Source of the DNA: Sulfuricella denitrificans skB26
Lineage (GTDB): Bacteria > Pseudomonadota > Gammaproteobacteria > Burkholderiales > Sulfuricellaceae
NCBI RefSeq assembly: GCF_000297055.2
Contig: NC_022357.1
Coordinates: 930,001-994,000, forward strand
Direction: 5' to 3'
Length of the DNA: 64,000 nucleotides
The position numbers and the translations under genes were made by a program. Positions within the stretch are counted from its first letter, which is position 1. Each line of letters opens with the position of its first letter. Shown one piece after another: positions 35,593 through 59,398 of the stretch. The notes beneath the pieces were generated by a model. It did not search any database and had not been told where the DNA came from. It saw nothing but the letters and a program-made list of their open reading frames with translations.

Positions 35593-35882
35593 CATTCTGG
35601 GTTTACATCCTTCGCTGCGCTGACGGTTCTTACTACACAGGGCACACCGATAACCTCGAAAAACGCATGGGTGAACATCAAACCGGCACATGCGGTGGAT
35701 ACACAGCCGAACGTTTGCCGGTTGAGCTTGCGTGGTCTCAGGAATGCGCTACCCGTGAAGAAGCCTTGGCCGCAGAATTGCAGATCAAAGGTTGGAGCCG
35801 GAAAAAGAAGGAAGCCATGATGCAGGGCGATTGGGGGAAGGTATCCCAGTTGGCGAAAAAAGATTTCACGAAGAAGAAGTAG
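35589..35882 (+). CDS. GIY-YIG nuclease family protein
   Basis: A 97-residue single-domain protein of the UPF0213/YhbQ-like GIY-YIG group. The two motif strands are visible as VYILRC and SYYTGHT, followed by the conserved Arg in NLEKRMGEH and the Glu in REEALAAELQIKGWSRKKK. Such proteins may cut structured or damaged DNA, but most are uncharacterised. It overlaps hsdR by four bases (ATGA), so it is translated with the restriction subunit, which is unusual inside an hsd operon. A role as accessory nuclease of the system is an inference. Confidence 0.88.
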   Translation: MTFWVYILRCADGSYYTGHTDNLEKRMGEHQTGTCGGYTAERLPVELAWSQECATREEALAAELQIKGWSRKKKEAMMQGDWGKVSQLAKKDFTKKK

Positions 35883-35888
35883 GGGATG

Positions 35889-35926
35889 GTTCGATACGCG
35901 CGCGGTGCGCGCTACTCACCATGAAC
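35889..35926. repeat. Palindromic dispersed repeat, copy 1
   Basis: Begins GTTCGATACG, has a GCGCGC/GCGCGC inverted core and ends CTACTCACCATGAAC. The layout (TCGATACG, palindromic core, CTACTC, GAAC) is that of the copy at 35985-36025 read on the other strand. Confidence 0.7.
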
Positions 35927-35984
35927 GGCTGTAACCATGCGCAATGCGTGCTACTTACCACGACTGGCTAACCTTTCCACCTCC

Positions 35985-36025
35985 GTTCGTCCCGAGTAGC
36001 CCGCAAAGCGGGCGTATCGAGGGAC
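35985..36025. repeat. Palindromic dispersed repeat, copy 2 (opposite orientation)
   Basis: GTTCGTCCCGAGTAG, then the inverted core CCCGC-AAA-GCGGG, then CGTATCGAGGGAC. The outer GTCCC/GGGAC arms also pair. It lies 32 bp upstream of the hsdM start, and its ends resemble those of the repeat inserted in hsdM at 36289-36324. Confidence 0.75.
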
Positions 36026-36057
36026 ATGATGAACAACCCAAGAAAGGAAAAACATTT

Positions 36058-37707: not shown

Positions 37708-38855
37708 TGACGATGATGGCTCTGGGTCAAACAGCCCGATTCATCAACGGCGCAGCCTTCAAGCCGACTGACTGGGGCAATGAGGGTTTACCAATCATCC
37801 GCATCCAGAACCTGACCGGGACAGGCGAAAAGTTTAATTTCACAACACGGCAGGTCAAGGCAGAGTTGATCGTGGAACCAGGAGACCTCTTGGTTTCGTG
37901 GAGTGCGACACTGGATGTCTACCGTTGGGCAGGCCCACGCGGACTGCTAAACCAGCACATTTTTAAGGTTCTCCCAAAATCCGAAATTGATCCCGACTAC
38001 CTGTTCTTTGCCTTGAAAAGTGCCTTGGCCGAACTGTCATCAAAGACACATGGCTCTACGATGAAGCATGTCGTCAGAGGCGATTTCGAATCAACTCAGA
38101 TTCGGGTTCCCCCCCTCGAGGAACAACGCCGCATCGTCGATATTCTCTCCCGTGCCGAGGGCATTGTGCGGCTGCGGTGCGAGGCACAGAAAAAAACCAC
38201 CGAGCTGATACCGGGAATTTTTCTCGATATGTTCGGCGACCCGGCGACGAATCCGAAGGGGTGGCCTCGTGCTTTGCTTGGGAAATTACTGAATTCCATA
38301 GACAGCGGCCAAAGTCCAAAATGTCATAGCAGGCAAAAACTGTCTAACGAATGGGGGGTGTTGCGACTTAGCGCGATCTCACCTTGCGACTATGATGAGG
38401 CAAAACATAAGGCATTGCCGACAGAGATTTCGCCTGATTTATCGGTGGAAGTGCAGGCGGGTGAAGTTTTGCTGAGTCGAAAAAATACCTACGAGTTGGT
38501 TGGCGCTTCCGCATACGTTTGGAAGACTGAGGGAAAAATTTTGCTTCCCGACCTTATTTTTCGACTTAGCATTGGCGACCACGAACGATTGCATCCTATC
38601 TATCTATGGAAACTACTGACAATCCCATCAAAACGGGAACTACTTCGCACCCTCGCTAGTGGTTCAGCAGGATCGATGCCAAACATATCGAAGCAACGAT
38701 TGCGAACACTTGAAATTGAGGTTCCACCTCTTGGGTTACAAGCCCGCTTTGCGGAATCTGTCGAGCAAATCCGCTCAATCCAATCTCAACAATCCGCCGC
38801 CACAGAAAAGGCCGAAGCCACTTTCGACGCTCTGATGACACAGGTTTTTTCCTGA
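37707..38855 (+). CDS. hsdS: Type I restriction-modification specificity subunit S
   Basis: A 382-residue specificity subunit with the two-target-recognition-domain plan. TRD1 covers about residues 1-130, the central conserved helix begins at PPLEEQRRIVDILSRAEGI (about 133), TRD2 covers about 190-330, and the second helix repeat begins at PPLGLQARFAESVEQI (about 340). It recognises a bipartite DNA site for HsdM and HsdR. The DNA for TRD2 (about 38280-38700) looks richer in A+T than its neighbours, as expected for exchanged TRDs. It overlaps hsdM and the next gene by one base each. A fragment like its C-terminus occurs at 41168-41257. Confidence 0.93.
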   Translation: MTMMALGQTARFINGAAFKPTDWGNEGLPIIRIQNLTGTGEKFNFTTRQVKAELIVEPGDLLVSWSATLDVYRWAGPRGLLNQHIFKVLPKSEIDPDYLFFALKSALAELSSKTHGSTMKHVVRGDFESTQIRVPPLEEQRRIVDILSRAEGIVRLRCEAQKKTTELIPGIFLDMFGDPATNPKGWPRALLGKLLNSIDSGQSPKCHSRQKLSNEWGVLRLSAISPCDYDEAKHKALPTEISPDLSVEVQAGEVLLSRKNTYELVGASAYVWKTEGKILLPDLIFRLSIGDHERLHPIYLWKLLTIPSKRELLRTLASGSAGSMPNISKQRLRTLEIEVPPLGLQARFAESVEQIRSIQSQQSAATEKAEATFDALMTQVFS

Positions 38856-39631
38856 TGACGGCCAGCCCGATCATCACGCCATATCTTCCAGGAAACCTCC
38901 AAGGTCTTCATGGGGAAGAAGAGCGCATCCGAACGGAATCGTCGCTCTGCATCAACGCAAGTGCATCGCTGAAAGACCATGTGGAGATGATGCATTCCTG
39001 CCTCGACATGCTCCACGCCGCACACGTCAATGCACCAAAAAAACTGTCAGACGACGAGCAGGTTATCTACGGTCTCGGCATCCGCCTTTTCAACTCCGGA
39101 TCATGTTTTTTGAAATTGCTGCTTAGTGGCTATTATCAAGGAGCCGTTTCCTTCCTGCGCGATGTTGTTGAGGTTGGCTTCTTGCTCGATTATTTTGATT
39201 ATAGCCCCCAGAGTATTGCGGCGTGGCGCAATGGCGAGGTCGATGAGTTCAAGCCCTACAAAATTCGGGGCGTTCTCGACAAGCGAGACGGTTTCGAGGA
39301 AAAAGGGCGAGGCGAAAGATATAAGTTCCTATCGACCTACGGCACACACGCGACTTTCAAAGGCTTTGAACTGGTCGTAACCGAAAAGGGTCTCACGATC
39401 GGGCCATTCATGAGCGAGAAACTGCTGACGGGAATCCTGAATGATGGTGCTTTGCACTTCTCCCATCCGGTGCTGGTTTGTCTGATACATCACAAGGGCC
39501 TTTCGCTCAATCAAATGAAAAACAGCGTTGGATTTCTCGATGCAATCAATACGTGGTTCGGGAAATACAGAGACCCGGAAATTGCCGCCATCGGCCTTAA
39601 ACAGATTGATGAGTTAAGGAAATTTTTCTAA
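38855..39631 (+). CDS. Helical protein of unknown function (DUF5677-like)
   Basis: A 258-residue protein I cannot assign with certainty. It is predicted mostly helical, with two hydrophobic patches. The segment SGYYQGAVSFLRDVVEVGFLLDYF has the Arg-x4-Glu helix pattern seen in DUF5677 and in HEPN-like or AbiV-type proteins, which are frequent in defence loci. No signal peptide is present. The start overlaps the hsdS stop (TGATG) and the stop overlaps the TIR gene start (TAATG), so it is tightly coupled to both. It may be an effector or sensor of the TIR cassette; that is inference from position. Confidence 0.75.
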   Translation: MTASPIITPYLPGNLQGLHGEEERIRTESSLCINASASLKDHVEMMHSCLDMLHAAHVNAPKKLSDDEQVIYGLGIRLFNSGSCFLKLLLSGYYQGAVSFLRDVVEVGFLLDYFDYSPQSIAAWRNGEVDEFKPYKIRGVLDKRDGFEEKGRGERYKFLSTYGTHATFKGFELVVTEKGLTIGPFMSEKLLTGILNDGALHFSHPVLVCLIHHKGLSLNQMKNSVGFLDAINTWFGKYRDPEIAAIGLKQIDELRKFF

Positions 39632-40086
39632 TGCCGGATGTTTTTATTTCCCACGCAAAGGCAGACCTCCCGTTCGCGGAGTTCCTGCACCGCCATATGT
39701 CACAGGAAGGGTTGAGCGTGTATCTTGCCTCAATGTCGATACAGCCGGGTGAGCAGTGGATGCCTGCAATTATGGATAATCTGCGAGCGTCAACCTGGGT
39801 GTTGTGCCTTGCCAGCCGTGCCGCGAGCGAGTCAAAGTGGGTCATGCAGGAGATGGGAGTAGCTATTGGTGCTAACAAGAAACTGGTGCCCATTGTATGG
39901 GATCAGCCGCCCGAGTCGTTACCGGGCTGGATGCGCCAATATCAGGCAGTCAATCTTGGCGGTGTGAGCCAGCAGGAAGCCAAGGCTGCCATAGGACGAA
40001 TTGCCGAGACCATCAAGGCGGAGAAGCAAAAGGGGCTGTTCATTCTGGGCCTGTTGGTCGCCGGTATTGCCTTGTTTGGGAAGTAA
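39631..40086 (+). CDS. TIR-domain protein with C-terminal membrane segment
   Basis: A 151-residue protein. Residues 1-125 form a TIR domain: first strand PDVFISHAKAD, the BB-loop region YLASMSIQPGEQW, and SESKWVMQEMGVAIG, whose Glu corresponds to the catalytic residue of TIR NAD-hydrolases and cyclases. Residues about 134-150 (GLFILGLLVAGIALFG) are a single membrane helix at the very end, so the TIR domain would face the cytoplasm as a tail-anchored protein. It overlaps the upstream gene by one base; a ThsB-like gene follows after three bases. A role in NAD-based signalling or killing during phage infection is likely from the family, not shown here. Confidence 0.88.
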   Translation: MPDVFISHAKADLPFAEFLHRHMSQEGLSVYLASMSIQPGEQWMPAIMDNLRASTWVLCLASRAASESKWVMQEMGVAIGANKKLVPIVWDQPPESLPGWMRQYQAVNLGGVSQQEAKAAIGRIAETIKAEKQKGLFILGLLVAGIALFGK

Positions 40087-40089
40087 AAC

Positions 40090-40638
40090 ATGGCTGACTA
40101 CTTCGGTAACTCCAACATGAACGGCCTGCTGGCTGCAATGATGCAGCCGGTGCGACGAAAAATATTTGTCAGTTATCACCATGGCAATGACCAAGCCTAT
40201 TACGATGGGTTTTCGCGCTTCTTCCATGACCAATATGAGGCAGTGTTCGACAACTCGCTTGATCGTGGAATTGACAGCGATAATGCTCAATATGTTATGC
40301 AACGCATCCGGGATAAACACATTACGGGCACATCCTGCACGGTCGTGCTGATTGGAGCCCAGACGCACCAACGGAAGTATGTGGATTGGGAGATCAAGGC
40401 AACGCTGGATAAGCAGCACGGCTTAGTCGGCATCGTGTTGCCAAATCACCAGAAAACCAACGACGGCAAGATCGTTGTGCCTGAACGATTTCATTGCAAT
40501 GTTTGCACCCGCTATGCGTCATTTGAGCATTGGGACAATCTGACCGCGCAGCGACTAACCCAGATGGTCAACGCTGCCACGAACTTGTCGAAAGCGCTGA
40601 TCGACAATCCATTTGATATTAAGCAACGCAACGGGTGA
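40090..40638 (+). CDS. ThsB-like TIR protein (DUF1863 / MTH538 fold)
   Basis: A 182-residue protein of the TIR-like DUF1863 group, which includes ThsB of the Thoeris antiphage system. Shared features are RKIFVSYHHGNDQAYYDGF at the start, the central VVLIGAQTHQRKYVDWEI (with the conserved Glu) and HGLVGIVLPNH. In Thoeris, ThsB recognises infection and makes a cyclic ADP-ribose signal from NAD. No ThsA (SIR2-SLOG or macro-TM effector) is encoded in the window; the neighbouring TIR-membrane protein or the unknown proteins may take that part. It is three bases downstream of the TIR gene. Confidence 0.85.
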   Translation: MADYFGNSNMNGLLAAMMQPVRRKIFVSYHHGNDQAYYDGFSRFFHDQYEAVFDNSLDRGIDSDNAQYVMQRIRDKHITGTSCTVVLIGAQTHQRKYVDWEIKATLDKQHGLVGIVLPNHQKTNDGKIVVPERFHCNVCTRYASFEHWDNLTAQRLTQMVNAATNLSKALIDNPFDIKQRNG

Positions 40639-46518: not shown

Positions 46519-47814
46519 TCAGGTTCCGTAGCGTGCATCCACCTGGATGCCGATTTTCTTCAGCATCGGTGTCGGCAATTCCCCCCCCGCGCAGACGATA
46601 ATTGCATCGTTGGGCAGTTCGATCGCCTCGTCGCCCTTGGCCAGGATGACCTTATCGGCCTCGATTTTTTTCACGGTGGTTTCCATGATCTGCTGGATGC
46701 GCTGGCCGGCGACCGCCTCTTCCAGTCGCGCCCGGTTTTTCGGTTTGACGCGGTCGAACGCTTTGCCACGGTAGCACAGGGTGACTGTAGTGTCCGGTTC
46801 TGCGCTGATGTCGAGCGCGGCTTCCAGGGCGCTGTCGCCGCCTCCGACAACCAGCACATGTTGTCCGCGATACTGATCTGCTTCGATCAGGCGATAAACC
46901 ACCTTGGGCTGGTCCTCGCCCTCTGCGCCCAGCTTGCGCGGGGTGCCGCGGCGACCGATGGCGAGCAGGATGTTGCCGGTCCGGTACCGGTCCTTGCTGG
47001 TCCTGACCGTGAATCCGTCGTCTTCCTGGATGATCTCTTCCATGCGTTCGCTGAAGCGGACGTTGGGTTGGGCCTTGTCGAGCACGCCCCGCCAGATCTC
47101 CATCAATTCTTCCTTGCTGACTTCGCGCACCTTGATTTCGCCCACCAGCGGCAGTTTCATCGGTGCTGTCATCACCAGCTTGTTGCGCGGGTAGTGGTAG
47201 GTTGTTCCGCCCAGGGAGTCTTCCTGTTCGACGGTCACGTAGCGCAATCCCGCCTCTTTTGCGGCCAGGGAGGCGGAAATGCCGGCCGGTCCGGCACCGA
47301 TGATGACGAGATCGAATTCGGCATTGCTGCGGGGTCGTTTGACGATGGTGCCCACGGCCTGGGTGCCTTGCTTGATGGCGTTGCGGATCAGCCCCATGCC
47401 GCCGAGTTCCCCGGCGATGAAGATGCCGGGTACATTGGTTTCGAATTCGGGGGTGACCTGGGGGATGTCCATGCCGCGTTTAGCCGTGCCGAAGACTAAT
47501 TTGATGGCACCGACCGGGCAGGATGGCGCACAGGCGCCGTGTCCTATGCAATGTGAGGGGTTAATCAGAGTCCCTTTGCCGTTGATGACCCCGAGGGCCT
47601 TTTCCGGGCAGGCACGAACACAGGCGCCGGATCCGATGCAGATCGAGAGATCAACAACCGGGTGCAGGGAAGGCGGTTCGGTCAGGCCGGTTTCCACGGC
47701 TTCCCTGAGGATTTCAGCGTGAGCGCAGGATTTCTTACGGACCCCGCGCAGGTGCAGCTTGATGGAGACGAGTACCAGTAATGCCGGGACCAGATAGTAG
47801 ATGAGTTCTGACAT
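46519..47814 (-). CDS. Membrane-bound ferredoxin/FAD oxidoreductase
   Basis: A 431-residue fusion. An N-terminal membrane helix (ELIYYLVPALLVLVSI) is followed by a ferredoxin-like domain (about residues 55-110) with CIGSGACVRACP and CIGHGACAPSCP, then by a thioredoxin-reductase-like domain (FAD site VIIGAGPAGISASLAAKEAG, NAD(P) site VLVVGGGDSALEAALDI). In both ferredoxin motifs the usual second cysteine is replaced (Ser, His). It probably passes electrons between NAD(P)H and a membrane carrier. It is divergent, by 214 bp, from the cytochrome operon, and likely belongs to the same process. Confidence 0.88.
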   Translation of the reverse strand: MSELIYYLVPALLVLVSIKLHLRGVRKKSCAHAEILREAVETGLTEPPSLHPVVDLSICIGSGACVRACPEKALGVINGKGTLINPSHCIGHGACAPSCPVGAIKLVFGTAKRGMDIPQVTPEFETNVPGIFIAGELGGMGLIRNAIKQGTQAVGTIVKRPRSNAEFDLVIIGAGPAGISASLAAKEAGLRYVTVEQEDSLGGTTYHYPRNKLVMTAPMKLPLVGEIKVREVSKEELMEIWRGVLDKAQPNVRFSERMEEIIQEDDGFTVRTSKDRYRTGNILLAIGRRGTPRKLGAEGEDQPKVVYRLIEADQYRGQHVLVVGGGDSALEAALDISAEPDTTVTLCYRGKAFDRVKPKNRARLEEAVAGQRIQQIMETTVKKIEADKVILAKGDEAIELPNDAIIVCAGGELPTPMLKKIGIQVDARYGT

Positions 47815-48028
47815 GGATTAAACGTTCGCTCTCTCTGTATGGGTGATGTCCTGTCGATGACATGACGAATTTGTGGTTCTAGTCAGCGTGGATATATTAC
47901 CTTATCATCGCGCCTTTCAAAGGCGATCATTGCCATTGTGTAATCCAACGATGAATTGACCTTCGCTACAATGCGCTCGTGAAATGGCCCGCTATGGGCG
48001 TCAGAATCAGGGTTTTAGCTGGAGGAAA

Positions 48029-48943
48029 ATGCCAAGTACAAGCGCACTCGGTCCCACGACTGTGATCTCGATGAAAGGGGCTGCCAAGTCTGGAACCGAA
48101 ACGGTGCTCCGCTGGGTCTGGCGTTCTTCGATCGTTCTGCTGGTTGTTCTGCTACTGGTGCTGGCCTGGCTGGTGGCCTTCGGTAATCTCTTTAAACCCG
48201 GCTCGGATCTGGGTTACAACCTTGGCCTGGCTGGCGGGTTGATGATGCTGAGCCTGCTGCTTTATCCTTTACGCAAGCGTGTTCGCGCCCTGGATCGCCT
48301 GGGACGCATGGAAACCTGGTTCCGTTACCACATGTTCATGGGTATCGGTGGCCCCGTTCTGATCCTTTTCCACTCCACCTTCAAGACCGGTTCGATGAAC
48401 GCCACCATTGCGTTGACTGCCATGTTGCTCGTGGCTCTGAGCGGGGTGGTGGGGCGTTTTGTTTACCGCCACATCCACCGCGGACTGTATGGCAGGGAGT
48501 TGACTCTGGCAGAGCTTGAGGCAGAGTTCAAGGATCGCCAGGAGAGCATCGACTCGGTTTTTGAACTGCAACCGAATATCGAGCAAAGACTCAAGGAATT
48601 CCATCAGTTGGCTTTCGCTGAGCTCGACAGCACGTCACAGCGTATCTGGCGTTTTATGACTTTGCAGCATAAGGGTAAAAGCCTGTCTCGCAGCATCCGC
48701 CACGACGCTAAAAAAGTCCTGGCAGATGAAGCCAAGAAGCAGAACTGGCCCTACGCCCAGCTCATCCTCAATTACAGCTTGGCCAAGCGGCAGATTGATG
48801 ACTATGTTTATGCCATTATCCGGCTCGCTCAGATATCCAGTTGGACCAAGCTGTTCTCGCTCTGGCATATCGCACATGTTCCCTTCATTTATATGCTGCT
48901 TTTCAGCGGGATCGTTCATGTTGTTGCGGTTCATCTTTACTAG
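48029..48943 (+). CDS. b-type cytochrome-like inner-membrane protein
   Basis: A 304-residue membrane protein. Helices are visible at about residues 33-55, 65-82, 98-120, 125-142 and 278-300. Histidines lie in or near them (YHMFMGIGGPVLILFHSTF, RFVYRHIHRG, WHIAHVPFIY, GIVHVVAVH), as in ferric reductase-like or cytochrome b561-type proteins, so it may bind two haems b and exchange electrons with quinones. A long charged helical region separates the fourth and last helices. The start with GGAGG upstream is chosen at 48029; the frame opens at 47984. The next gene overlaps its end by 26 bp. Confidence 0.8.
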   Translation: MPSTSALGPTTVISMKGAAKSGTETVLRWVWRSSIVLLVVLLLVLAWLVAFGNLFKPGSDLGYNLGLAGGLMMLSLLLYPLRKRVRALDRLGRMETWFRYHMFMGIGGPVLILFHSTFKTGSMNATIALTAMLLVALSGVVGRFVYRHIHRGLYGRELTLAELEAEFKDRQESIDSVFELQPNIEQRLKEFHQLAFAELDSTSQRIWRFMTLQHKGKSLSRSIRHDAKKVLADEAKKQNWPYAQLILNYSLAKRQIDDYVYAIIRLAQISSWTKLFSLWHIAHVPFIYMLLFSGIVHVVAVHLY

Positions 48944-50741
48944 CCTGTTGTTCTTGCTGGCCAGCTATGCTGGCGTTGCCTCCGCTGACCTTTACGAAAA
49001 GGCGTTGATGCCGGGCGAGGTGATCCAGGGGCATGCCAAATACGAATTGGAGTGCAACAAATGCCACTTGCGCTTCGATAAGGGGGCGCAGGTACGGCTG
49101 TGCATGGACTGCCACAAGGATATTGCCGCTGACGTCACCGCCAAGATGCACCTGCATGGCAGCCTTGAAGACCATGCCTGTCGTAACTGCCACACCGAAC
49201 ATAAAGGGCGTAATGCCCGATTGGCGGCGATCGACAAGAACAAATTCGACCATAGCCGAACCGGCTTCCGGCTCAACGGCGCTCACAAGGACATCCAGTT
49301 AAAATGTGAAAGTTGCCACAAGCCGAAGGCCAAGTTTCGGGATGCTTCCAGGCTGTGCAACGATTGCCACAAGAAGGACGATCAGGAAAAAGGACACAAG
49401 GGTAAGTTGGGCACGAAGTGCGAGAGTTGCCACAACGACAAGAACTGGAAAGAGGCAAAATTCGACCACGAGAAAACTAAGTTTTCGCTACTGGGCGGGA
49501 AACATGCCGAGGTCGAGTGCAAGGCGTGCCACGCTGACAAGACTTATCAGCAGACACCACTGACCTGCAATGGCTGCCACAAAAAGGATGACCAGGAAAA
49601 AGGTCACAAGGGCCGCTACGGGTCGAAGTGCGAATCCTGCCACAACGACAAGGGGTGGAAGGAACTCATTTTCAATCACGACCGGGACACCCATTACGCA
49701 TTGAAGGGCAAGCACCAGCAGGCCAAATGCAACACTTGCCACTTGCCGGAAAAAGGCGCGCTTTACCAGCAGCAGAAGCTGCCGACCAAGTGCATTGCCT
49801 GCCACAAGAAGGACGAACAGGAAAAAGGGCATCGCGGCGGCCTGGGCGAGAAATGCGAGTCCTGCCATAACGAGCGCGGCTGGAAGAATTCAAACTTCGA
49901 TCATGACAATACGCATTTTGTGCTGCGCGACAAACACAAGGATGCCAAGTGCGACACCTGCCACAAGGGCGGCGTTTCCGGCCCGAATGCCAAGCTGAAG
50001 GTGGATAAGGAATGCGTGGCTTGTCATCGCAAGAACGACGACGACAAAGGCCACAAGGGCCGCTATGGTCCGAAATGCGAGACTTGTCATACGGCCAAGG
50101 ACTGGAAGAGCAGTACCTTCAATCATGATCGTGAAACAAAGTATCCCCTCAAGGGCAAACACGTCGAGACCAAGTGCGATGCTTGTCATACGCCCGAGAA
50201 GGGGCCGGTTTATAACAAGACCAGGCTGGCGAACCAGTGCATTGCCTGTCACCGCAAGGATGACAAGCACAAGGGCCAGCTAGGCAACAAGTGCGAAAGC
50301 TGCCACAACGAGAAGCGCTGGCAGGATGCCCCTTACGACCACAACAAGTCGCGCTTCCCGCTGACCGGCAGCCACGCCAGGGCGGAGTGCAAAAAGTGTC
50401 ATCAGACCCCCGCATTCCACGATGCGCCGTCAGCCTGCAATGCCTGTCACGAGAAAGAAGACAAGCACAAAGGCCGCTTCGGCATCAAGTGCGAGGCTTG
50501 CCATTACACCGGCACCTGGAAATCCTGGGATTTCGATCATGGAACCACGCGTTTTGCGCTGGATGGCGGGCACACCAAAGTAGCCTGCTACGACTGCCAC
50601 AAGGAGCCCACAGGCAGCCAGAGCAAGACGAGCAGGGCCTGTGTCAGTTGCCACCTCAAGGATGATGTGCATGATGGCGGCTTCAGCGGTCAATGCGAGC
50701 GCTGCCATGTGACGAGCAACTGGAAAAAAGTACGGAGGTAG
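48918..50741 (+). CDS. Periplasmic multihaem c-type cytochrome, 24 CXXCH
   Basis: A 607-residue precursor with a signal peptide (MLLRFIFTSLLFLLASYAGVASA). I count 24 CXXCH haem-binding motifs. From about residue 85 the protein is built of modules of roughly 80 residues with three haems: KCESCHN...W...F.HD.T.F.L.GKH....C..CH, then C.ACHKKDD-EKGHKG.. and again KCESCH. The many His residues outside CXXCH can be distal ligands. It resembles cytochrome c7/c3-type domains strung together. It overlaps the membrane cytochrome gene and precedes the giant cytochrome and the porin, so a role as periplasmic wire between inner and outer membrane is likely. Confidence 0.93.
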   Translation: MLLRFIFTSLLFLLASYAGVASADLYEKALMPGEVIQGHAKYELECNKCHLRFDKGAQVRLCMDCHKDIAADVTAKMHLHGSLEDHACRNCHTEHKGRNARLAAIDKNKFDHSRTGFRLNGAHKDIQLKCESCHKPKAKFRDASRLCNDCHKKDDQEKGHKGKLGTKCESCHNDKNWKEAKFDHEKTKFSLLGGKHAEVECKACHADKTYQQTPLTCNGCHKKDDQEKGHKGRYGSKCESCHNDKGWKELIFNHDRDTHYALKGKHQQAKCNTCHLPEKGALYQQQKLPTKCIACHKKDEQEKGHRGGLGEKCESCHNERGWKNSNFDHDNTHFVLRDKHKDAKCDTCHKGGVSGPNAKLKVDKECVACHRKNDDDKGHKGRYGPKCETCHTAKDWKSSTFNHDRETKYPLKGKHVETKCDACHTPEKGPVYNKTRLANQCIACHRKDDKHKGQLGNKCESCHNEKRWQDAPYDHNKSRFPLTGSHARAECKKCHQTPAFHDAPSACNACHEKEDKHKGRFGIKCEACHYTGTWKSWDFDHGTTRFALDGGHTKVACYDCHKEPTGSQSKTSRACVSCHLKDDVHDGGFSGQCERCHVTSNWKKVRR

Positions 50742-50902
50742 AAGGCGGGCAGTGGCTAACTTCTTCAGTTCGTATGGAAAATCAGGATATTCCACTCCAG
50801 ATTACACAAGGTTAACGATGTTTTCCTGATATTTGTCATAGAATCGCTCAAAATTTGAAGGTGTAACTCACGTGTCATGCCCTGACGGTTGAGGAGAACC
50901 CC

Positions 50903-50932
50903 ATGAAGAGCCCTATGACTTATAAAAAATAA
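50903..50932 (+). other. Frameshifted signal-peptide start of the giant cytochrome
   Basis: ATG at 50903 has an excellent GAGGAG site (50891-50896) and reads MKSPMTYKK-stop. An additional A in the A6 run at 50924-50929 would join it in frame to IIVNGLVRQLAPLVFLVLAM and the giant cytochrome, giving a canonical signal peptide with a basic N-terminus. As written, a one-base shift separates the two. Confidence 0.7.
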
Positions 50933-50955
50933 TCGTTAACGGTCTGGTTCGGCAG

Positions 50956-53900
50956 TTGGCCCCGTTGGTCTTTCTTGTGCTGGCCATGATCATTTCTGGT
51001 CTGGTGTTGGCGGAGACCCCGGCGGCCAGCGGCTTATCCTTCAACCACAATGCGACGGGCTTTTTTCTGGATGGCGCTCACGCCAGGCAAACCTGCGAAT
51101 CCTGCCATACCCAGGGCCTGTTCCGAGGCACTCCCCGCGATTGTGCAACCTGCCACCGTCCCGGCGGGCGGGCGACCGGAAAGCCGGCGATGCATATTCC
51201 GACCACCGCTGCCTGCGATTCCTGTCACCTGAACATCAGCTGGACACCATCCAATTTCCAGCACCGGACAACTCAGGGAATTGTTCAGGGCGCATGCAAT
51301 ACCTGTCATAACGGCAGTACGGCCACCGGCAAGCCGGCCAGGCACCTGCCGACGAACGCCTCTTGCGATTCATGTCATAAAACCACGTCCTGGCTGCCTG
51401 CCGGATATACCCATGCCCTGGTCGCTCCCGGTACCTGTGCCTCCTGCCATAACGGAACACGCGCCACCGGCAAGCCATCTGCCCACATTCCCACCTCGGC
51501 TTCCTGCGATTCGTGCCATGCTGCCGGCGTGTCTTTTGCGCCGATCTCCGTTGGCGTGAGCGGGATGCATGCCAACATGACGGGCCCCGTTGCGACCGGG
51601 AATTGCTCCAGTTGTCACAGCGGCGCTTTTCATTCGCAGAATGCCCAGTCCAAGCCGGCTACCCATATCCCCACGACGGCCCAGTGCGATACTTGCCACA
51701 GTTCGACGACTTCGTGGGCAACTGCGGCCAAGCCTGATCATGCGGCGATAAGCCCGACCGTTTCCGGGCGCTGTTCGGATTGCCATAACGGCGTTAGCGC
51801 ACTAGGAAAACCCACGACCCATATTCCGACCTCCAAGCAGTGCGATAGCTGCCACACCAATTTCTCGGCTTTCAAGCCGACGCAAATGAATCACGTTGGC
51901 ACGGTGGGGCAGTGTTCAAGCTGCCATAGCGGTTCCTATAATTTTGCCAATGCGCAATCGAAGCCCAACGTGCACATTCCGACCACGGCACAGTGCGATT
52001 CCTGCCACGTCAGCGGTTTCATCACCTGGTCGCCAGCCGCGATGAACCATGCGGGCATGACGGGCAAGTGCTCGACCTGCCACAGCGGGGTTTTCCTGTC
52101 CCAGAACGCCCAGACCAAACCGGTCACCCACATCGGCACGACCGCCCAGTGCGATACCTGCCATAGTTCCACGGCCTCCTGGGCGACGGCCACCTTCAAT
52201 CACGCAGCGGCGACTCCCGCAGTTGCCGGTCGTTGCGCCAGCTGCCATAACAGCGTTTCGGCGCTGGGCAAGCCGTCATCCCATATCCCCACCGGTGCGC
52301 AATGCGACAGTTGCCACGCCAACTTCACCGCCTTCAAGCCGGCCCAGATGAACCACAGCGGCCTGACCGGCCAGTGTTCGACCTGCCACAATGGGTCGTA
52401 TCTTTTCTCCAATGCGCTGACGCGCCCGATCAATCACATTCCCAGCATTGCCCAGTGCGACACCTGCCACGTCAGCGGTTTCGTCAACTGGAGTCCCGCG
52501 ACCATGAACCACCGCGGCCTGAATGGCCTGTGTTCTGCCTGTCACAGCGGTGCCTATCTCGCCCAGAATGCCCAGATGAAGCCGGTGACGCACGTCAGCA
52601 CCAGCGCGCAGTGCGATACCTGCCACACCTCCACGATTTCCTGGGCAACGGCTGTTTATGCGCACGATGCCAGCGCCAGCGGCCAGTGTTCTACTTGCCA
52701 CAACGGCGCAACGGCGCTGGGCAAGCCGACCAACCACATCCCCACCAGCGCGCAGTGCGATACCTGCCACACCGGTTTCTCTGCTTTCAGGCCGGCGCGG
52801 ATGAGCCATGCGGGAACGTCCGGTCAATGTTCAACCTGCCATAGCGGCAGCTATGTATACGCCAATGCGCTGGCCAGACCGATCAACCATATTCCGACCA
52901 TTTCCCAGTGCGATACCTGCCACACCGGCGGCTTTGTCGCCTGGTCGCCATCGGTAATGAGCCATACGGGTCTGCAGGGTTCGTGCTCTAACTGCCATAG
53001 CGGCGCTTTCATTGCGCAGAATGCGCAGATCAAGACCCCTACCCATATTCCGACTACGGCCCAGTGCGATACCTGTCACAATTCGACCGTCAGCTGGGCG
53101 ACCGGCACCTTCAATCATGCCGCTGCCTCGCCTGCGGTTGCTGGCCGATGCGCGACCTGCCACAACGGCACGTCAGCCCTGGGTAAACCGACAAATCACA
53201 TTCCGACCACGGCCCAGTGCGATACCTGTCACACCAACACCACCGCTTTTGCGCCGGCGAGCATGAGCCATGGCAACACCACCGGGCCGGTCGCTACCGG
53301 CAACTGTTCGAGCTGTCATGGCGGAACCTATCTGGCAGCCAATGCCCTGACCAAAACGCCTACCCATATTACGACCACGGCTCAATGCGATACCTGCCAC
53401 AAGTCGACGACGACCTGGGCCGGCGCTACCTACATCCACGCCGCCACGGCAACCGGTAACTGCTCGAGCTGCCACAACGGCGCAACCGTGCTCGGCAAGC
53501 CGGCAACGCATATTCCCTCCAGCGCACAGTGCGATGCCTGCCATACCAATTACACCGCCTTCAAGCCGGCAAGGATGAATCACACCGGGCTGACCGGACA
53601 GTGCACGACCTGCCATACCGGGTCCTACTCGGCCGTCAATGCACTGAGCAAGCCGGCGATCCATATCCCGACCGGTGCGCAGTGCGATGTCTGTCACGTG
53701 AACGGCTTCACCGCCTTCGCGCCCGGTGTCATGAGCCATGCCGGCACGAACTCTCCGGTTGCGGCGGGCAACTGTTCCACCTGCCACACTGGCGCCTACA
53801 TCGCCCAGAATGCGCAGATCAAGACGCCAACCCATATATCGACAGCCGCTCAGTGCGACACCTGCCACAGCTCGACCACCTCCTGGGCGACAGCCACGTT

Positions 53901-55977
53901 CAACCATGCCGCGGCGACCCCGCCGGTTGCCGGCCGCTGCTCCAGCTGCCATAACGGCACCAATGCCCTCGGCAAACCGACCAACCATATTCCCTCAGCG
54001 GCCCAGTGCGATACCTGCCATAGCGGTTTCGTCGCCTTTGCGCCGGGGCTGATGAACCATGGCGGCACCAGCGGTCCGGCGGCTGCCGGCAATTGCGCTA
54101 CCTGCCACGGCGGGGCCTATGTCGCCATCAACGCACAAGCCAAGACGGCGACGCATATCCCGACCACGCAATCCTGCGATACCTGTCACTCCACCGTGGC
54201 CTGGAAGCCTACCAGCTATTCGCACCAGGGCGTCGTGGCCGGCACCTGTGCAAGTTGCCACAACGGGTCGGCTGCGCTCGGCAAGACGCCGGCCCATTTG
54301 CCGACCAGCGCTTCATGTGATGCTTGCCATACCAATTACAACGCCTTCGCCCCGGCCAAGATGAACCATGCCGGATCGACCGGACCGCTTGTGGCTAATA
54401 ACTGCTCGACCTGCCACACCGGGGCTTACCTGGCGCTGAATGCCCAAGTCAAGCCGGCCACTCACGTCAGTACCACGGCGCAATGCGACACCTGCCACAA
54501 GTCGACGGTGACCTGGGCCACCGCTATTTATACCCATGATGCCAGCGCGATCGGCCAGTGCTCGACCTGTCACAACGGAATGACCGCTCTGGGTAAGCCG
54601 ACCACGCATATTCCAACCTCCGCGCAGTGCTCCACCTGCCATAACAACTACAACACCTTCCGGCCTGCCACGATGAGCCACACTGCGACGACGGGGCCGG
54701 TCGCCGTCGGCAACTGCTCGACTTGCCACAACGGCAGTTACATCGCAGTCAATGCGCTGTCCAAGCCGGCAACGCACATCCCGACGACCTCCCAGTGCGA
54801 CAGCTGCCATACTCGCGGTTACGCGGCCTGGTCGCCGTCGGTGATGAATCACGCCGGGCTGACCGGCCAGTGCTCGACCTGCCACAGCGGCGCCTATATC
54901 GCCCAGAACGCGCAGACCAAGACCCCGACTCATATTCCGACCACTTCTCAGTGCGATACTTGCCATAACTCGACCATAACCTGGGCGACCGCGACCTTCA
55001 ATCACGCCACCGCGAGCCCGCCTGCTACCGGCCGCTGCTCGACCTGTCATAACGGCACCAACGCCCTGGGCAAACCTTCCGTCCATATCCCCTCTACGGC
55101 GCAGTGCGACACTTGCCACAAGAATTACACAGCTTTTGCCCCGGGGGTGATGAGCCATACCCTTACAACGGGACCCACTGCAACCGGAAACTGTGCGACC
55201 TGCCATAACGGCGCCTACGCTGCCGTCAACGCTCAGGCCAAGAATGCCACGCATATTCCGACGACCCAGTCCTGCGACGCTTGCCATACGACAACTGCCT
55301 GGAAGCCCACCAGCTTTGCCCACGTCGGGGTTGTGACGGGTACCTGCGCCAATTGCCACAACAACGTCAATGCCAGCGGCAAGTCGACTCCGCATATCCC
55401 GACGACCCAGTCCTGCGATGCCTGCCATCGGACCGGACTTTCCTGGCTGCCGCTGATCACGCCGTATTCGCATACCGGTGTCCCTTCTACCGGTTGCAGC
55501 AACTGTCATAGCAGCGCTTATCCCAATATCGACGTAAAGCCGGCCAGCCACTTGCCCACGACGGCGGCGTGCGAGTCTTGCCACCATAGCTTTTCCATCT
55601 GGTTGCCTGCGACCTACAACCATTCTGGCGTCGTGACGGGAACCTGCCAGACCTGCCATGGCGGTTCCTACGCCAATGTTATGACAAAACCATCCAACCA
55701 CATTCCGACGATCACTCCGGCCGGGATGCCGGGTAATGAGTGTTCCAAGTGCCACAGCAGCACCACGTCCTTTGCCGTGGAGAGAATGAATCATGGCACC
55801 ATGCAGACCTCCTGCATTACTTGCCACGAGTCTTCCCCTACCTACCTGGGGAGCATGACGAAAGTTCTTCGTACGACGAATCACCACGGTACGAACGCGG
55901 TTGGAAAAGATTGCTCATCGAGCGGATGCCATAAGCCGCTGGGCTCTAAAGGCAGCACTTACACAAAATGGAACTGA
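50956..55977 (+). CDS. Giant multihaem c-type cytochrome, 62 CXXCH plus one CX4CH
   Basis: A protein of 1673 residues from a TTG start, or about 1691 if the frame is joined to the ATG at 50903. After a hydrophobic export segment ending near LVLAETPAA, nearly the whole length is repeated modules. By my count there are 62 CXXCH motifs and one final CX4CH (CSSSGCH). The repeat alternates HIPTTAQCDTCH and GRCSTCHNG...ALGKP, about 24 residues per haem, with conserved SW..A.FNHA and MNH segments that add distal histidines. It is probably extracellular or inserted in the following porin and conducts electrons across or beyond the outer membrane. Codon-level similarity between modules is high, a sign of expansion by duplication. 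Confidence 0.92.
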   Translation: MAPLVFLVLAMIISGLVLAETPAASGLSFNHNATGFFLDGAHARQTCESCHTQGLFRGTPRDCATCHRPGGRATGKPAMHIPTTAACDSCHLNISWTPSNFQHRTTQGIVQGACNTCHNGSTATGKPARHLPTNASCDSCHKTTSWLPAGYTHALVAPGTCASCHNGTRATGKPSAHIPTSASCDSCHAAGVSFAPISVGVSGMHANMTGPVATGNCSSCHSGAFHSQNAQSKPATHIPTTAQCDTCHSSTTSWATAAKPDHAAISPTVSGRCSDCHNGVSALGKPTTHIPTSKQCDSCHTNFSAFKPTQMNHVGTVGQCSSCHSGSYNFANAQSKPNVHIPTTAQCDSCHVSGFITWSPAAMNHAGMTGKCSTCHSGVFLSQNAQTKPVTHIGTTAQCDTCHSSTASWATATFNHAAATPAVAGRCASCHNSVSALGKPSSHIPTGAQCDSCHANFTAFKPAQMNHSGLTGQCSTCHNGSYLFSNALTRPINHIPSIAQCDTCHVSGFVNWSPATMNHRGLNGLCSACHSGAYLAQNAQMKPVTHVSTSAQCDTCHTSTISWATAVYAHDASASGQCSTCHNGATALGKPTNHIPTSAQCDTCHTGFSAFRPARMSHAGTSGQCSTCHSGSYVYANALARPINHIPTISQCDTCHTGGFVAWSPSVMSHTGLQGSCSNCHSGAFIAQNAQIKTPTHIPTTAQCDTCHNSTVSWATGTFNHAAASPAVAGRCATCHNGTSALGKPTNHIPTTAQCDTCHTNTTAFAPASMSHGNTTGPVATGNCSSCHGGTYLAANALTKTPTHITTTAQCDTCHKSTTTWAGATYIHAATATGNCSSCHNGATVLGKPATHIPSSAQCDACHTNYTAFKPARMNHTGLTGQCTTCHTGSYSAVNALSKPAIHIPTGAQCDVCHVNGFTAFAPGVMSHAGTNSPVAAGNCSTCHTGAYIAQNAQIKTPTHISTAAQCDTCHSSTTSWATATFNHAAATPPVAGRCSSCHNGTNALGKPTNHIPSAAQCDTCHSGFVAFAPGLMNHGGTSGPAAAGNCATCHGGAYVAINAQAKTATHIPTTQSCDTCHSTVAWKPTSYSHQGVVAGTCASCHNGSAALGKTPAHLPTSASCDACHTNYNAFAPAKMNHAGSTGPLVANNCSTCHTGAYLALNAQVKPATHVSTTAQCDTCHKSTVTWATAIYTHDASAIGQCSTCHNGMTALGKPTTHIPTSAQCSTCHNNYNTFRPATMSHTATTGPVAVGNCSTCHNGSYIAVNALSKPATHIPTTSQCDSCHTRGYAAWSPSVMNHAGLTGQCSTCHSGAYIAQNAQTKTPTHIPTTSQCDTCHNSTITWATATFNHATASPPATGRCSTCHNGTNALGKPSVHIPSTAQCDTCHKNYTAFAPGVMSHTLTTGPTATGNCATCHNGAYAAVNAQAKNATHIPTTQSCDACHTTTAWKPTSFAHVGVVTGTCANCHNNVNASGKSTPHIPTTQSCDACHRTGLSWLPLITPYSHTGVPSTGCSNCHSSAYPNIDVKPASHLPTTAACESCHHSFSIWLPATYNHSGVVTGTCQTCHGGSYANVMTKPSNHIPTITPAGMPGNECSKCHSSTTSFAVERMNHGTMQTSCITCHESSPTYLGSMTKVLRTTNHHGTNAVGKDCSSSGCHKPLGSKGSTYTKWN
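51170..55650 (+). repeat. Tandem haem-module repeats inside the giant cytochrome
   Basis: DNA encoding GKPxxHIPTxAQCDTCH recurs about every 48-50 codons, with a longer period of four haems (about 100 codons) marked by alternating FxAFxPxxMNH and SWATAxFNHA segments. Individual copies keep near-identical blocks such as CAGTGCGATACCTGCCA, which would favour recombination and copy-number change. Confidence 0.8.
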
Positions 55978-56074
55978 TGTCGTCCCAAGTATTTTTCGGG
56001 AGCGGACTGGTCGTGAAATTATCTGAACCTATGCCGGAGAGTAGCGGGGCAACTGGGCACCCGCATTACAGAAT

Positions 56075-58411
56075 ATGTCTTTTTTAAAAAAACCTGATTC
56101 CACTATTCGCCATGTTCTGGCCGCTGCTTTATTACTGGCTTGTTCTATCGCCAACGCCCAGATTATCGACCGCGTCGATATCGCGCCGGGAGAGAGCGAG
56201 GCCGAGATCGTGGTCCAGTTCTCGCAAAAAATCCTCTATCTGAGGCACGCGCCTTTACGTGACGGAAAAAACCTGCGCATCTTCATTCGGTTGATTGATA
56301 CCAACCTGGTGGAAAGCGATTTGATGCAGGAAACTGTGCGCGCGCCAAAAACCGACCGCGTGCCAGGCGTCACGGTGCTCTACCCCGAACTGATTAACGG
56401 CATGCTGGTGACCTTCTCTAAGACCACCAGCTTTTCAGTGCGCCCTGGAACGGACGGTCGCAGCATCATTATCACGGTTCCCCTGCTTCCGGCTGCCCCT
56501 GCGCCTTTAACCAAGACGCCACCGGTGAAGCAACCAACGGAGGAGATCGCCAAGGGCGCGTCGCCTGCATTGTTGGCAACCCCGGCGGCCATAGCTCCTC
56601 CACCGGTGAGTCAACCCACGGAAACGGTTACCCAGGTGGCAAAAGAAGAGTTGGCGACGCCGGTTGCACCACCGCCAGTGGCTTCCGCCGCCGAGGTTGA
56701 AACGCGTGCCAAGGCTTATCTAGAGGATGCTCGCCGCGCAATGGCCGGAAAAGATTCTGCCACGGCGGTGAATCGATTGAACCGGGTTCTCGGACTGCCT
56801 GCCAGCAGCCAGACCGAGGCTGCCCAGGCCCTGATCGGCGAGGCGCGGGAATTGAATGGGGAAATCCTGAAGGCAAAAGCCGAATATGATTTGTACCTTA
56901 AATTATTTCCCGCTGGGCCCAATGCCACGCGAGTCCGGGAGCGTCTCGCAGCCTTGCCCAAAGACGCCGCTCTGGCACGTGCCCGACCGAGGGCGCTGCC
57001 GAAAGAAGCCGGACCGGCAGAGTGGACTTTCAACGGCAGCGTTTCCTCTTACTACTACACGGGGAAATCACAGATCGAGACCCTGGTGCCGCCGCCTCCG
57101 GGGCAACTGACTTTCAGCCGCGATACCTTGTCGCTGGTGGATCAGAATTCGTTGATCTCCTCGATCAATCTCAATGCCCGGCGCCGCGACGCCTTCACCG
57201 ATACGCGCATCGTCGTTCGTGACACCGACAACAAAAACTTTCTCTCGCCTGCGCGCAGCTACAATCGATTGTATTCGGCCTATATAGATCATAACGATCG
57301 GCAAGTCGGATATTACCTGCGAGCGGGACGGCAAAACCCGAATGGCATGGGCGTAATGGATCGTTTTGACGGCGTGCAGGCGGGTTACAACCTGAACCCG
57401 GAATGGCGGGTGAATGCGGTGTATGGGGATGCGGTTGAATTCAATTCTCCGTTCAAGAAGAATTTTTACGGCGCCAGCGTGGAGCTTCTGCCCCAGACCG
57501 GTTTTCCGGGAATCAGCGTCTACGGCATCGAGCAGACCCTGGACGGCATGGCTAACCGCCGCGCTGTCGGTTCAGAAGTACGCTACTTCGATGGGCGTGT
57601 CACCGCCTACGGCATGCTCGATTACGATGTCTTGTACAAGGGGGTCAATATTGCCCTGCTGCAAGGCAACTATCTGAGTGAGGGGGGCGATAATTATTTT
57701 TTCGTTTTCGACCATCGCCGAGCCCCCTCATACAGTCTGACCAACGCCTTGCCCGCCGCGCCCGGTTTGTCATTACAGGAGATGGTTGCGCTGCAAGGTA
57801 TCGATCAAGTCCGGGCGCAAGCGAGTGCCCTGACCGCCATGTCCGACATGTTCTCTATCGGTGTGACTCATCCCTTGTCGGAGAGCTGGCAAGTCGGCGT
57901 CGATTACCGGTTGTCCTCCATCTCCAGCACGCAGCCTGTCATGGCTGTCTTGCCGCTGGGAGTGATCGGCACCTGTCTGGGTACGATAGACCCGGTCAAT
58001 AATACTTGCGTGATCGACACGGCTTCTCAGCAGGCGTCGGGCAAGAACCACGTGGTGACTTTTCAGGCGGTCGGCACCAACCTGTTTTTTACCAACGCAG
58101 TGGGGGTTGCCAACCTCAGCCTGATTCAGGCCCCGACGTATACCGGACAGGCGATGGGTATCGGGTATGTGCTTCCCTTCTGGGAGCAATGGCGTCTTGA
58201 TACCAATCTTCGCTACTATACGCAGAAGGATGACAGCGGCGACAAGCAGGACCGGATATCCCCGAGCCTGAAGCTTTCCTGGCAGTGGCATTCCAGTTTT
58301 TACCTGGAGGGGGAAATGGGCCGCGAAATGTCGAATTCCACTGGGCCAACCCGTAACGATCATAGCCGGCGCGACTATGTTTATATGGGTGTGCGCTGGG
58401 ACTTTCATTGA
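56075..58411 (+). CDS. Outer-membrane beta-barrel (porin) of the cytochrome complex
   Basis: A 778-residue exported protein. The signal peptide (SFLKKPDSTIRHVLAAALLLACSIANA) is followed by an AMIN-like domain (about residues 30-150), a Pro/Ala-rich linker, a TPR-like helical part (about 210-300) and a C-terminal beta-barrel (about 310-778) with many alternating aromatic strands and a final strand ending YVYMGVRWDFH. The arrangement fits the porin of a porin-cytochrome complex that holds a multihaem cytochrome in the outer membrane, as described for neutrophilic iron oxidisers (PCC3 type, from general knowledge). It lies 97 bp after the giant cytochrome gene. The two cysteines near residue 630-643 may form a loop disulfide. 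Confidence 0.82.
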   Translation: MSFLKKPDSTIRHVLAAALLLACSIANAQIIDRVDIAPGESEAEIVVQFSQKILYLRHAPLRDGKNLRIFIRLIDTNLVESDLMQETVRAPKTDRVPGVTVLYPELINGMLVTFSKTTSFSVRPGTDGRSIIITVPLLPAAPAPLTKTPPVKQPTEEIAKGASPALLATPAAIAPPPVSQPTETVTQVAKEELATPVAPPPVASAAEVETRAKAYLEDARRAMAGKDSATAVNRLNRVLGLPASSQTEAAQALIGEARELNGEILKAKAEYDLYLKLFPAGPNATRVRERLAALPKDAALARARPRALPKEAGPAEWTFNGSVSSYYYTGKSQIETLVPPPPGQLTFSRDTLSLVDQNSLISSINLNARRRDAFTDTRIVVRDTDNKNFLSPARSYNRLYSAYIDHNDRQVGYYLRAGRQNPNGMGVMDRFDGVQAGYNLNPEWRVNAVYGDAVEFNSPFKKNFYGASVELLPQTGFPGISVYGIEQTLDGMANRRAVGSEVRYFDGRVTAYGMLDYDVLYKGVNIALLQGNYLSEGGDNYFFVFDHRRAPSYSLTNALPAAPGLSLQEMVALQGIDQVRAQASALTAMSDMFSIGVTHPLSESWQVGVDYRLSSISSTQPVMAVLPLGVIGTCLGTIDPVNNTCVIDTASQQASGKNHVVTFQAVGTNLFFTNAVGVANLSLIQAPTYTGQAMGIGYVLPFWEQWRLDTNLRYYTQKDDSGDKQDRISPSLKLSWQWHSSFYLEGEMGREMSNSTGPTRNDHSRRDYVYMGVRWDFH

Positions 58412-58534
58412 GGGTGGTGGCGGTGTAAGCCCTTTGAAGAACTGCTGCTGTGGATAGGGCCGTTCCTGCTTGTGATTGTTGCAGGATGGCCCATTTTATT
58501 GTTATTTCAGAAAAACCCAACCGGAGAATCAACC

Positions 58535-59398
58535 GTGATCATCTTTACCATTTTTGTCGTAGTCGTCCTCGTTCTTGTCGTGCTCGGCCTCAGTGGCATC
58601 TTGCCTTTCGGTCACAAGCATCAGGGCGCCGAGATCAGCGTTGCGCTGAGAGAACTCCTGCTGGCACGAGCCGAGGGCAAGGTTAGCGGGGAAGAGTTCG
58701 AACGCCGTCAGGCTACGCTGCATGCAGCGTTAATGGATTTGCCGCAGCAGAGCGTACCCACGATGCGTCGCCATCTGCGCTGGGCAGTGCCTGCACTCAT
58801 AGTCATTATCGTCGTGCCGCCAGTGGTGCTGTATACCTACTTCGGTAAACCCAGAGAGGCTGAAATCTCCTCTTCTCCGGCGTCAGTTGCGCCTGCAGGG
58901 ATGCGTGTGCCTGAGCCGATGTCGCAGACTCAGCCAAAGGCGAATTCAGGGGGTGATCTGAATACGGCAGTCAAGCATCTGGCAGACAAGATGGTCAAAG
59001 ATCCCAATAACGGTGAGGGCTGGCTATTGCTGGCACGTACTTATGGGGAGCTTCGGCAACATAAGGAGGCGGCCAATGCCTATGCCAAAGCGGCTGCGCT
59101 TTTACCCCCCGATGCTGCGATGTTGGCGGACTGGGCAGACGCCTACGTCATGACCCAGGATCGCAAGTGGAATGATGAGGCGCGTGAAATCGTGAAAAGA
59201 GCCCTTGCAGCCAATCCCAAGCACCTGAAGTCGCTGGCACTCGCTGGCGGCGAGGCTTTCGATCGCGCCGATTACAAAACTGCCATCGACTACTGGAAAC
59301 GCATCAAGGCAGTCGCTCCAGCCGACTCGATGGACGTCAAGCTGGCGGATTCAAATATTGCGGAAGCGACTGCGCGGATGAGTGGAAAAAAGCCTTAG
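58535..59398 (+). CDS. CcmI/CycH-like cytochrome c maturation protein with TPR
   Basis: A 287-residue protein: an N-terminal membrane helix (VIIFTIFVVVVLVLVVLG), a short cytoplasmic region, a second helix (about residues 85-103) and a periplasmic TPR domain (about 140-280, GWLLLARTYGELRQHKEAANAYAKAAAL). This is the layout of CcmI, which delivers apocytochromes c to the haem ligation machinery. GTG at 58535 with GGAGAA upstream is preferred over ATG 58472. Its position at the end of a cytochrome operon with about 87 haem sites suggests a dedicated maturation factor. Other ccm genes are not in the window. Confidence 0.82.
   Translation: MIIFTIFVVVVLVLVVLGLSGILPFGHKHQGAEISVALRELLLARAEGKVSGEEFERRQATLHAALMDLPQQSVPTMRRHLRWAVPALIVIIVVPPVVLYTYFGKPREAEISSSPASVAPAGMRVPEPMSQTQPKANSGGDLNTAVKHLADKMVKDPNNGEGWLLLARTYGELRQHKEAANAYAKAAALLPPDAAMLADWADAYVMTQDRKWNDEAREIVKRALAANPKHLKSLALAGGEAFDRADYKTAIDYWKRIKAVAPADSMDVKLADSNIAEATARMSGKKP

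Follow-up and report, generated by a model that had tools for sequence, protein, structure and literature searches.

We find that the open reading frame at 50956–55977 of the window (the whole stretch of 64,000 nucleotides from Sulfuricella denitrificans skB26 that was analysed) is best read as the extracellular cytochrome of a PCC3 complex, acting as its outer wire. We give this reading a probability of about 0.8, which covers membership and the outer-wire role but no part of the oxidoreductase step proposed below. The cytochrome, which carries 63 haem-attachment motifs, is a further member of the already published PCC3 type. The new point is that an Fe-S/FAD oxidoreductase is tied to PCC3 by co-occurrence; this proposed component may still be listed in published supplements. 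Giant PCC3 cytochromes occur in many bacteria, and the oxidoreductase partner offers a testable clue to their role and to the direction in which their electrons flow.

PCC3 is defined by an inner-membrane protein (IMP) with an SGXXG and two WX3HX13H motifs, a periplasmic multihaem cytochrome (MHC), an extracellular MHC, and a porin, with 22 to 39 residues per haem (He et al. 2017, PMC5566968). The window resembles this type in its gene set and gene order, its IMP motifs, its residues per haem, and its low-complexity repeats. Four adjacent genes on the + strand (47984–58411) encode the IMP, a 24-haem cytochrome, the 63-haem cytochrome, and a porin candidate, the last assigned by homology only (Table 1). 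The repeat-rich extracellular MHC has a low residue-to-haem ratio, and its 26.6 residues per haem fall inside the published range. The IMP motif residues (S153GVVG; W112-H116-H130; W294-H298-H312) are invariant across 16 aligned IMPs. A simple hydropathy scan gives three strong hydrophobic segments in the IMP, against the five transmembrane helices of the PCC3 definition. A search of the PDB with the IMP profile returned five senseless rows at E 0.22 or worse and was set aside.

Table 1. Features of the PCC3 cluster, with positions numbered from the first letter of the window.
Feature	Position	Strand	Remarks
Fe-S/FAD pyridine-nucleotide oxidoreductase, membrane-anchored	46519..47814	-	Divergent from IMP; proposed extra component
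Inner-membrane protein (IMP)	47984..48943	+	SGXXG and two WX3HX13H; two b-type haems expected
Periplasmic 24-haem cytochrome	48918..50741	+	Listed ORF from 48726; 24 motifs
Start region	50890..50956	+	Shine-Dalgarno-like GAGGAG, ATG at 50903 out of frame, short A run between
Extracellular multihaem cytochrome	50956..55977	+	62 CXXCH and 1 CX4CH; orthologues L031, L032; true start uncertain
N-terminal cap	51094..51156	+	First two haem motifs 16 residues apart; every other spacing at least 23
Block absent from L046	51994..54315	+	Triplet mapping; edges fuzzy by a unit or two
C-terminal cap	55909..55974	+	DCSSSGCH (CX4CH) and KPLGSKGSTYTKWN
Outer-membrane beta-barrel (porin) candidate	56075..58411	+	Homologues in relatives; PF13505 weak
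CcmI/CcmH-type TPR protein (cytochrome c assembly)	58472..59398	+	PF23914 E=1.3e-23

An IMP-alignment scan of genome contigs returned 470 stretches with relatives, and the analysis went on with the best 80. Together with 15 further stretches and one extension, these form a set of 96 loci, 91 of them distinct. Homologues of the porin candidate occur in 55 of the 96 loci (best 80 of 470 plus 16) and lie 3' of the large cytochrome where both are present. The candidate itself has a signal-like hydrophobic segment, and PF13505 is its only Pfam match, a weak one (E=0.0073). The CcmI/CcmH-type protein is matched in 26 of the same 96 loci, and many of the other stretches end earlier. The gene for the periplasmic cytochrome can be placed from an ATG (48918) that lies within the 3' end of the IMP gene and ahead of a signal-like hydrophobic stretch. 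MtrCAB and MtoAB are similar in combining a porin with a periplasmic and an outer multihaem cytochrome (general knowledge; PMC5566968); they differ in having 10 haems per cytochrome.

A motif scan returned 62 CXXCH and one CX4CH (CSSSGCH at residue 1653) over 1673 residues, the same number that an earlier, sequence-only reading had counted. Residue-shuffled versions of the protein hold 0.77 CXXCH on average and four at most (1000 shuffles), and there are no stop codons in the translation of 50956–55977. The protein was also rightly described as His-rich. It has 129 His, 67 of them outside CXXCH (66 without the His of CX4CH), and 61 of the 62 CXXCH units have at least one extra His. Nearly complete bis-His ligation of the haems would be expected to produce this pattern, and we infer such ligation from it. 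Pfam Cytochrome_C7 matches 26 stretches of the protein, which has a predicted mass of 172 kDa plus haems. A phmmer search of the PDB gave three weak c-type matches (E 1.8e-6 to 1e-3) and no others: 9eov (MtrC), 8k9e, and 6f0k. In OmcS/OmcZ-type nanowires, by comparison, small subunits polymerise into filaments. The DmsE/MtrA-type decahaem family (TIGR03508), in which a single domain with about ten haems fits the whole model, was rejected as an assignment. The entire protein scores 193.6 bits, just above the curated cut-off of 192.2, but as a sum over ten stretches. No single stretch reaches the cut-off in the scan of the host genome, where the best one scores 42.7 bits, and the protein has 63 motifs.

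Well-studied conductive cytochromes have 6 to 10 haems each. The haem load does exceed these, as first noted, a comparison that draws on general knowledge; far larger predicted cytochromes are already in print, and their 85/86 and 112 motifs rule out any claim to the largest known. Within PCC3, extracellular MHCs with 63 sites in Amphritea atlantica and 85 in Agromonas oligotrophica have been reported (PMC5566968), and the count in the window therefore lies in the range of the family. An MHC on an ANME-2c fosmid (PMC9012536) is similar in having very many haem motifs in one chain (86). It differs in its S-layer domain and its organism, and the passage that describes it states no PCC3 partners. 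The same holds for the organism and stated partners of an MHC from a Paludibaculum metagenome-assembled genome (MAG), which has 112 motifs in one chain (PMC11495043).

We find that the array is built from two-haem units. The modules had been called near-identical, which the comparison of copies contradicts: DNA copies of the repeat are 60–77% identical to the reference (60% being the floor of the tool), and TRF reports no tandem array in the cytochrome gene. The mean spacing is likewise wider than the 24 residues per haem first given, at 26.6 (1673/63), nearer 26 and alternating. Adjacent units are about 29% alike, while the best paralogue of a unit is 71% alike on average and 93% at most. Similarity between units is 0.44–0.52 at even lags and 0.27–0.29 at odd lags. 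This is a clean two-unit period, and the building block is therefore a two-haem unit. The N-terminal spacing of 16 is found in 62 of 67 rows of relatives (loci: best 80 of 470 plus 16). In 32 complete rows, the C-terminal end is of the window's kind, with CX4CH followed by PLGxxGxxYxxW or a near variant, as alignment A2 also shows. The plan of the array, as read from the sequence, is thus one of two-haem units between constant end caps.

The array appears to be old. Two relatives (L031 and L032) have exactly 62+1 motifs with a spacing string identical to that of the window, at 83–86% protein identity. Units resemble the same-place units of these two relatives (means 0.84 and 0.87) more closely than their best paralogues (mean 0.71), and the best match lies at the same index for 54 of 62 and 55 of 62 units. 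Thus, the array is old and stable, and not a fresh expansion.

Haem number, whose variation between strains the sequence-only reading had raised as a question, does vary among relatives: the 32 complete rows with the window's cap type (type A) hold 11 to 107 motifs (best 80 of 470 plus 16 loci). A difference between the nearest relatives was ruled out, both having exactly 63. Odd counts are found in 28 of the 32 complete type-A rows, the four even ones being 12, 14, 26, and 28; the type-B rows have even counts in 4 of 4. The 67 rows come from 64 of the 91 distinct loci, and some are fragments of gapped loci. One type-A row, that of L097 (15 motifs), is a fragment. The 27 loci without a row had a contig end, no outer cytochrome on the stretch, or a sequence removed by the lysine-content filter, which skipped L033, L076, L095, and L110, each with an outer cytochrome. 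The type-B pattern missed L072 (50 motifs). The 32+4 rows exclude sequences that have other tails or are truncated by N or by the end of a contig.

One relative, L046, illustrates how the array can differ in length. It has 33 haems and is without about units 13–42 of the window (30 haems). Its triplets 1–12 map to window units 1–12, triplets 13–19 to 43–49, triplets 20–22 best to 36–38, and triplets 23–30 to 53–60. At the other extreme, L128 (3579–11945, MAG CTSoil_122) encodes a complete protein of 2789 residues with 106 CXXCH and one CX4CH, neighboured by IMP, 24-haem cytochrome, porin, and CcmI-like genes. Its 107 motifs are above the 85 of PCC3 in PMC5566968 and below the 112 in PMC11495043. 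In 56 of 67 rows (loci: best 80 of 470 plus 16), the count in the periplasmic partner is 24. The inner part is thus almost constant, unlike the outer one. Together, a nearly fixed 24-haem inner part and a freely variable outer array provide a natural set for relating wire length to electron transfer. For Chloroflexi, it has already been remarked that haems are gained and lost in pairs or multiples (PMC7399161). The Burkholderiales S13 and Rifle 'type 2' MHCs described in the same source are similar to the window in that 24- and 49-haem cytochromes precede a porin, and in that the larger MHC varies by insertion and deletion of CxxCH-bearing domains. They differ in having 49 rather than 63 motifs, and their porin is called similar to OmbB.

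Some loci depart from this arrangement. L039, L086, L088, L122, and L125 have another kind of outer cytochrome, with wider spacings, beside the same IMP and periplasmic cytochrome. L086, L088, and L122 show a seven-haem rhythm of spacings (about 28 29 35 36 40 44 56), and where the end is visible (L039, L088, L125), the tail is unlike both caps. In L098, L101, L105, and L120, an IMP and an 18-haem cytochrome are followed directly by the oxidoreductase. A giant outer cytochrome was not found on the fetched stretch of these four; in L098 and L105, the opposite strand carries an ORF for 11/12 haems a few kilobases upstream. This arrangement is perhaps a shorter version of the PCC3 system.

The four-part definition of PCC3 (PMC5566968) is without the Fe-S/FAD oxidoreductase that the window cluster has. 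We find that this gene co-occurs closely with the IMP. Among 300 genomes of the order, 16 have IMP matches at E 1e-45 or better, a cut-off picked after a gap in the scores was seen, and in 24 more the matches are weak throughout (E no better than 1e-12). At E 1e-60, the oxidoreductase is found in exactly the same 16 genomes. A Fisher test of the overlap gives 7e-27, which is no fair probability because the genomes are related. The porin occurs in the same 16 genomes and in one 85%-complete genome. Within the window's own family, two of nine genomes have both IMP and oxidoreductase, and seven have neither. In a sample of the phylum, the IMP is present in 6 of 398 genomes and the oxidoreductase in the same 6 (3 of them shared with the order sample), on a different contig from the IMP in two. 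One further genome of this sample (G323) has a partial oxidoreductase match without an IMP, in a longer and probably different ORF. These counts score the few best first-look candidates per genome, and weaker homologues may lie elsewhere.

Gene linkage shows the same association. The oxidoreductase is on the fetched stretch in 75 of 91 distinct PCC3-type loci (best 80 of 470 plus 16), divergent upstream of the IMP in 66 and downstream in 9. Among the 16 unlinked loci, it is found elsewhere in the genome in 14, and none was found in 2. In the main texts of the PCC3 electron-transfer papers that were searched, no mention of it as a PCC3 component was found. The main text of PMC5566968 has no matches for ferredoxin, FAD, pyridine, or thioredoxin, and in PMC10734462, '4Fe-4S' (once) and 'ferredoxin' (15 times) appear in other contexts in the passages shown, beside a single 'FAD' match of unclear context. 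The co-occurrence points to NAD(P)H-linked chemistry, and not quinone alone, as the end of the wire.

In the oxidoreductase, a hydrophobic helix at the N-terminus is accompanied by two ferredoxin-like motifs and an FAD domain resembling those of YpdA and ferredoxin-NADP reductase. Its structure model is fair (mean pLDDT 85.5), and Foldseek ranks YpdA structures first among the PDB matches to this model (E 6.6e-21, with a query TM-score of 0.44). The window sequence and 80 homologues were aligned; 73 rows were left once incomplete sequences were dropped, and 69 once duplicates were removed. Six Cys are invariant in all 69, window included. At the place of the second Cys, motif II has His in all 69 sequences, and motif I has Ser or Ala in 67 of them. 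Ferredoxins with such second-Cys substitutions have been isolated as [3Fe-4S] forms with potentials of -340 to +230 mV, the His and Asn types being more positive (PMC6237146). A 62-residue piece ahead of the FAD motif gives weak profile matches (E 0.024 to 0.12) to the C-terminal ends of the Pyr_redox_2, YpdA, thioredoxin-reductase, and glutamate-synthase profiles. Its match to lipoamide dehydrogenase lies mid-profile, unlike the others, and its best fitting row in the PDB is GliT (E 0.023), among unrelated rows. Since C-terminal profile ends are matched ahead of the FAD motif, the domain looks circularly permuted, which these weak matches make suggestive only. Nucleotide binding is likewise a prediction from family and motifs.

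These components could together form a long conduit through the envelope. Each two-haem unit of the 63-haem cytochrome, with two attachment motifs and about one extra His per haem, would contribute to a long row of haems packed close together. This chain would dock by one end at the porin and there meet the 24-haem cytochrome of the periplasm, a protein that could be about long enough to cross that space. The IMP, with its two-haem-b type motifs, would link the periplasmic cytochrome to the inner membrane, and the membrane-anchored NAD(P)H-type oxidoreductase would form the cytoplasmic end. Haem loading, location, docking, and electron flow are all put forward here as predictions, and the extracellular location of the 63-haem cytochrome is expected by analogy with PCC3. 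The sequence-only reading proposed a self-contained conduit spanning the outer membrane and reaching well beyond it. A long wire out from the outer membrane is still the best reading; it would not be self-contained, given the porin candidate, the 24-haem cytochrome, and the IMP.

The possible length of the wire can be estimated from published values. A chain of 86 haems has been given as 630 A, with about 27 haems needed for a periplasm of 200 A (PMC7096707). Scaled, not measured, 63 haems would reach about 46 nm and 24 haems about 18 nm. AlphaFold2 models of smaller PCC3 cytochromes are reported to be long and mostly linear (PMC10734462). Our own AlphaFold2 model of its last 474 residues (alignment A2, 18 rows) had a mean pLDDT of 42.3 and a pTM of 0.21 and was discarded.

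We give equal odds to inward and outward flow along this wire, and regard each as a real possibility that falls short of an even chance. In the inward case, electrons from Fe(II), minerals, or other cells would reach the quinone pool or, if energy is supplied, NAD(P)+. The transfer to NAD(P)+ would run against the membrane potential, as established bioenergetics has it. Inward flow is close to the published hypothesis, in which the IMP is proposed to meet the quinone pool (He et al., PMC5566968), and PCC3 is common in iron oxidisers (PMC5566968, PMC10734462). Gallionella-type titles are found on 12 of the 80 named loci (best 80 of 470), but the other 68 titles belong to other groups. Two long ORFs of the host genome match the RuBisCO large-subunit family, a possible sign of autotrophy and of a need for a donor; however, this family also holds RuBisCO-like proteins, and the control Bacillus subtilis matches too. 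Against inward flow, both PCC3 clusters of S. lithotrophicus ES-1 fall on Fe(II) relative to thiosulfate (PMC8788666), an observation that outward flow would fit. In the same organism, the extracellular cytochrome Slit_1448 is given as 0 in every column of the proteome table in the passage concerned.

Outward flow would run from NAD(P)H through the Fe-S/FAD enzyme and the b haems to the 24-haem and 63-haem cytochromes, and on to an outside acceptor, much like a split ferric reductase or NOX with a very long tail. The close co-occurrence of oxidoreductase and IMP, the YpdA/ferredoxin-NADP reductase-like domain, and the Fe-S motifs without a second Cys are all in its favour. The IMP motif is shared with ferric reductase/NOX-type haem b domains (PMC5566968), and outward flow from NAD(P)H is thus at least as plausible as iron oxidation. 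The role of the oxidoreductase is, however, assigned from its family and motifs, and the enzyme could equally run in reverse. Our fullest proposal, which is tentative and more doubtful than not when taken whole, is that PCC3 is a trans-envelope NAD(P)H-linked conduit. It would have a permuted FAD/Fe-S oxidoreductase with two three-cysteine clusters inside, a split ferric-reductase-like haem b protein in the membrane, and an outer array of 11 to at least 107 haems, set by gain and loss of two-haem units between fixed caps. Export of electrons, not iron oxidation, would be the main task of such a conduit.

The haem array might instead mainly hold electrons briefly, as a store of charge, and not carry them far. 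This has been suggested previously (PMC7399161, PMC10734462), and would agree with a large outer array that varies beside an almost constant periplasmic part. Array length and spacing are, however, exactly conserved in three genomes, which suggests that length matters. We consider a mainly storage role improbable, and prefer a wire leading out from the outer membrane.

The start of the 63-haem cytochrome gene is doubtful at 50956. An ATG with a Shine-Dalgarno-like stretch sits upstream in another frame, and the listed ORF opens at a TTG because the frames of that ATG and of the cytochrome part at a short A run. L031 and L032 have intact in-frame starts. The frame break may reflect a slip in sequencing, a true mutation, or a form of regulation, and a sequencing error at a homopolymer of A has been reported in another PCC3 gene (PMC5566968). 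The same frame problem could point to a decayed or mis-assembled gene, a repeat artefact or one from which no full protein is made, but this is very improbable: the repeat copies are too divergent for collapse, three assemblies agree unit by unit, and dN/dS is about 0.14 against L031 (dN 0.096, dS 0.673; the L032 comparison, with dS 3.97 near saturation, was not used).

Elsewhere in the window, upstream of HtpG, there is a defence island at 33391–40638: after the R, M, and S genes of a type I restriction-modification system come two TIR-like proteins with matches to ThsB models. No link between this island and PCC3 is apparent. In the host genome, a scan with a DNA pattern gave no matches, the pattern being too strict. 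The same genome has another multihaem ORF at G000:C1:2788593-2790698 (L145 3594–5699, - strand), an open frame of 702 residues with eight CXXCH.
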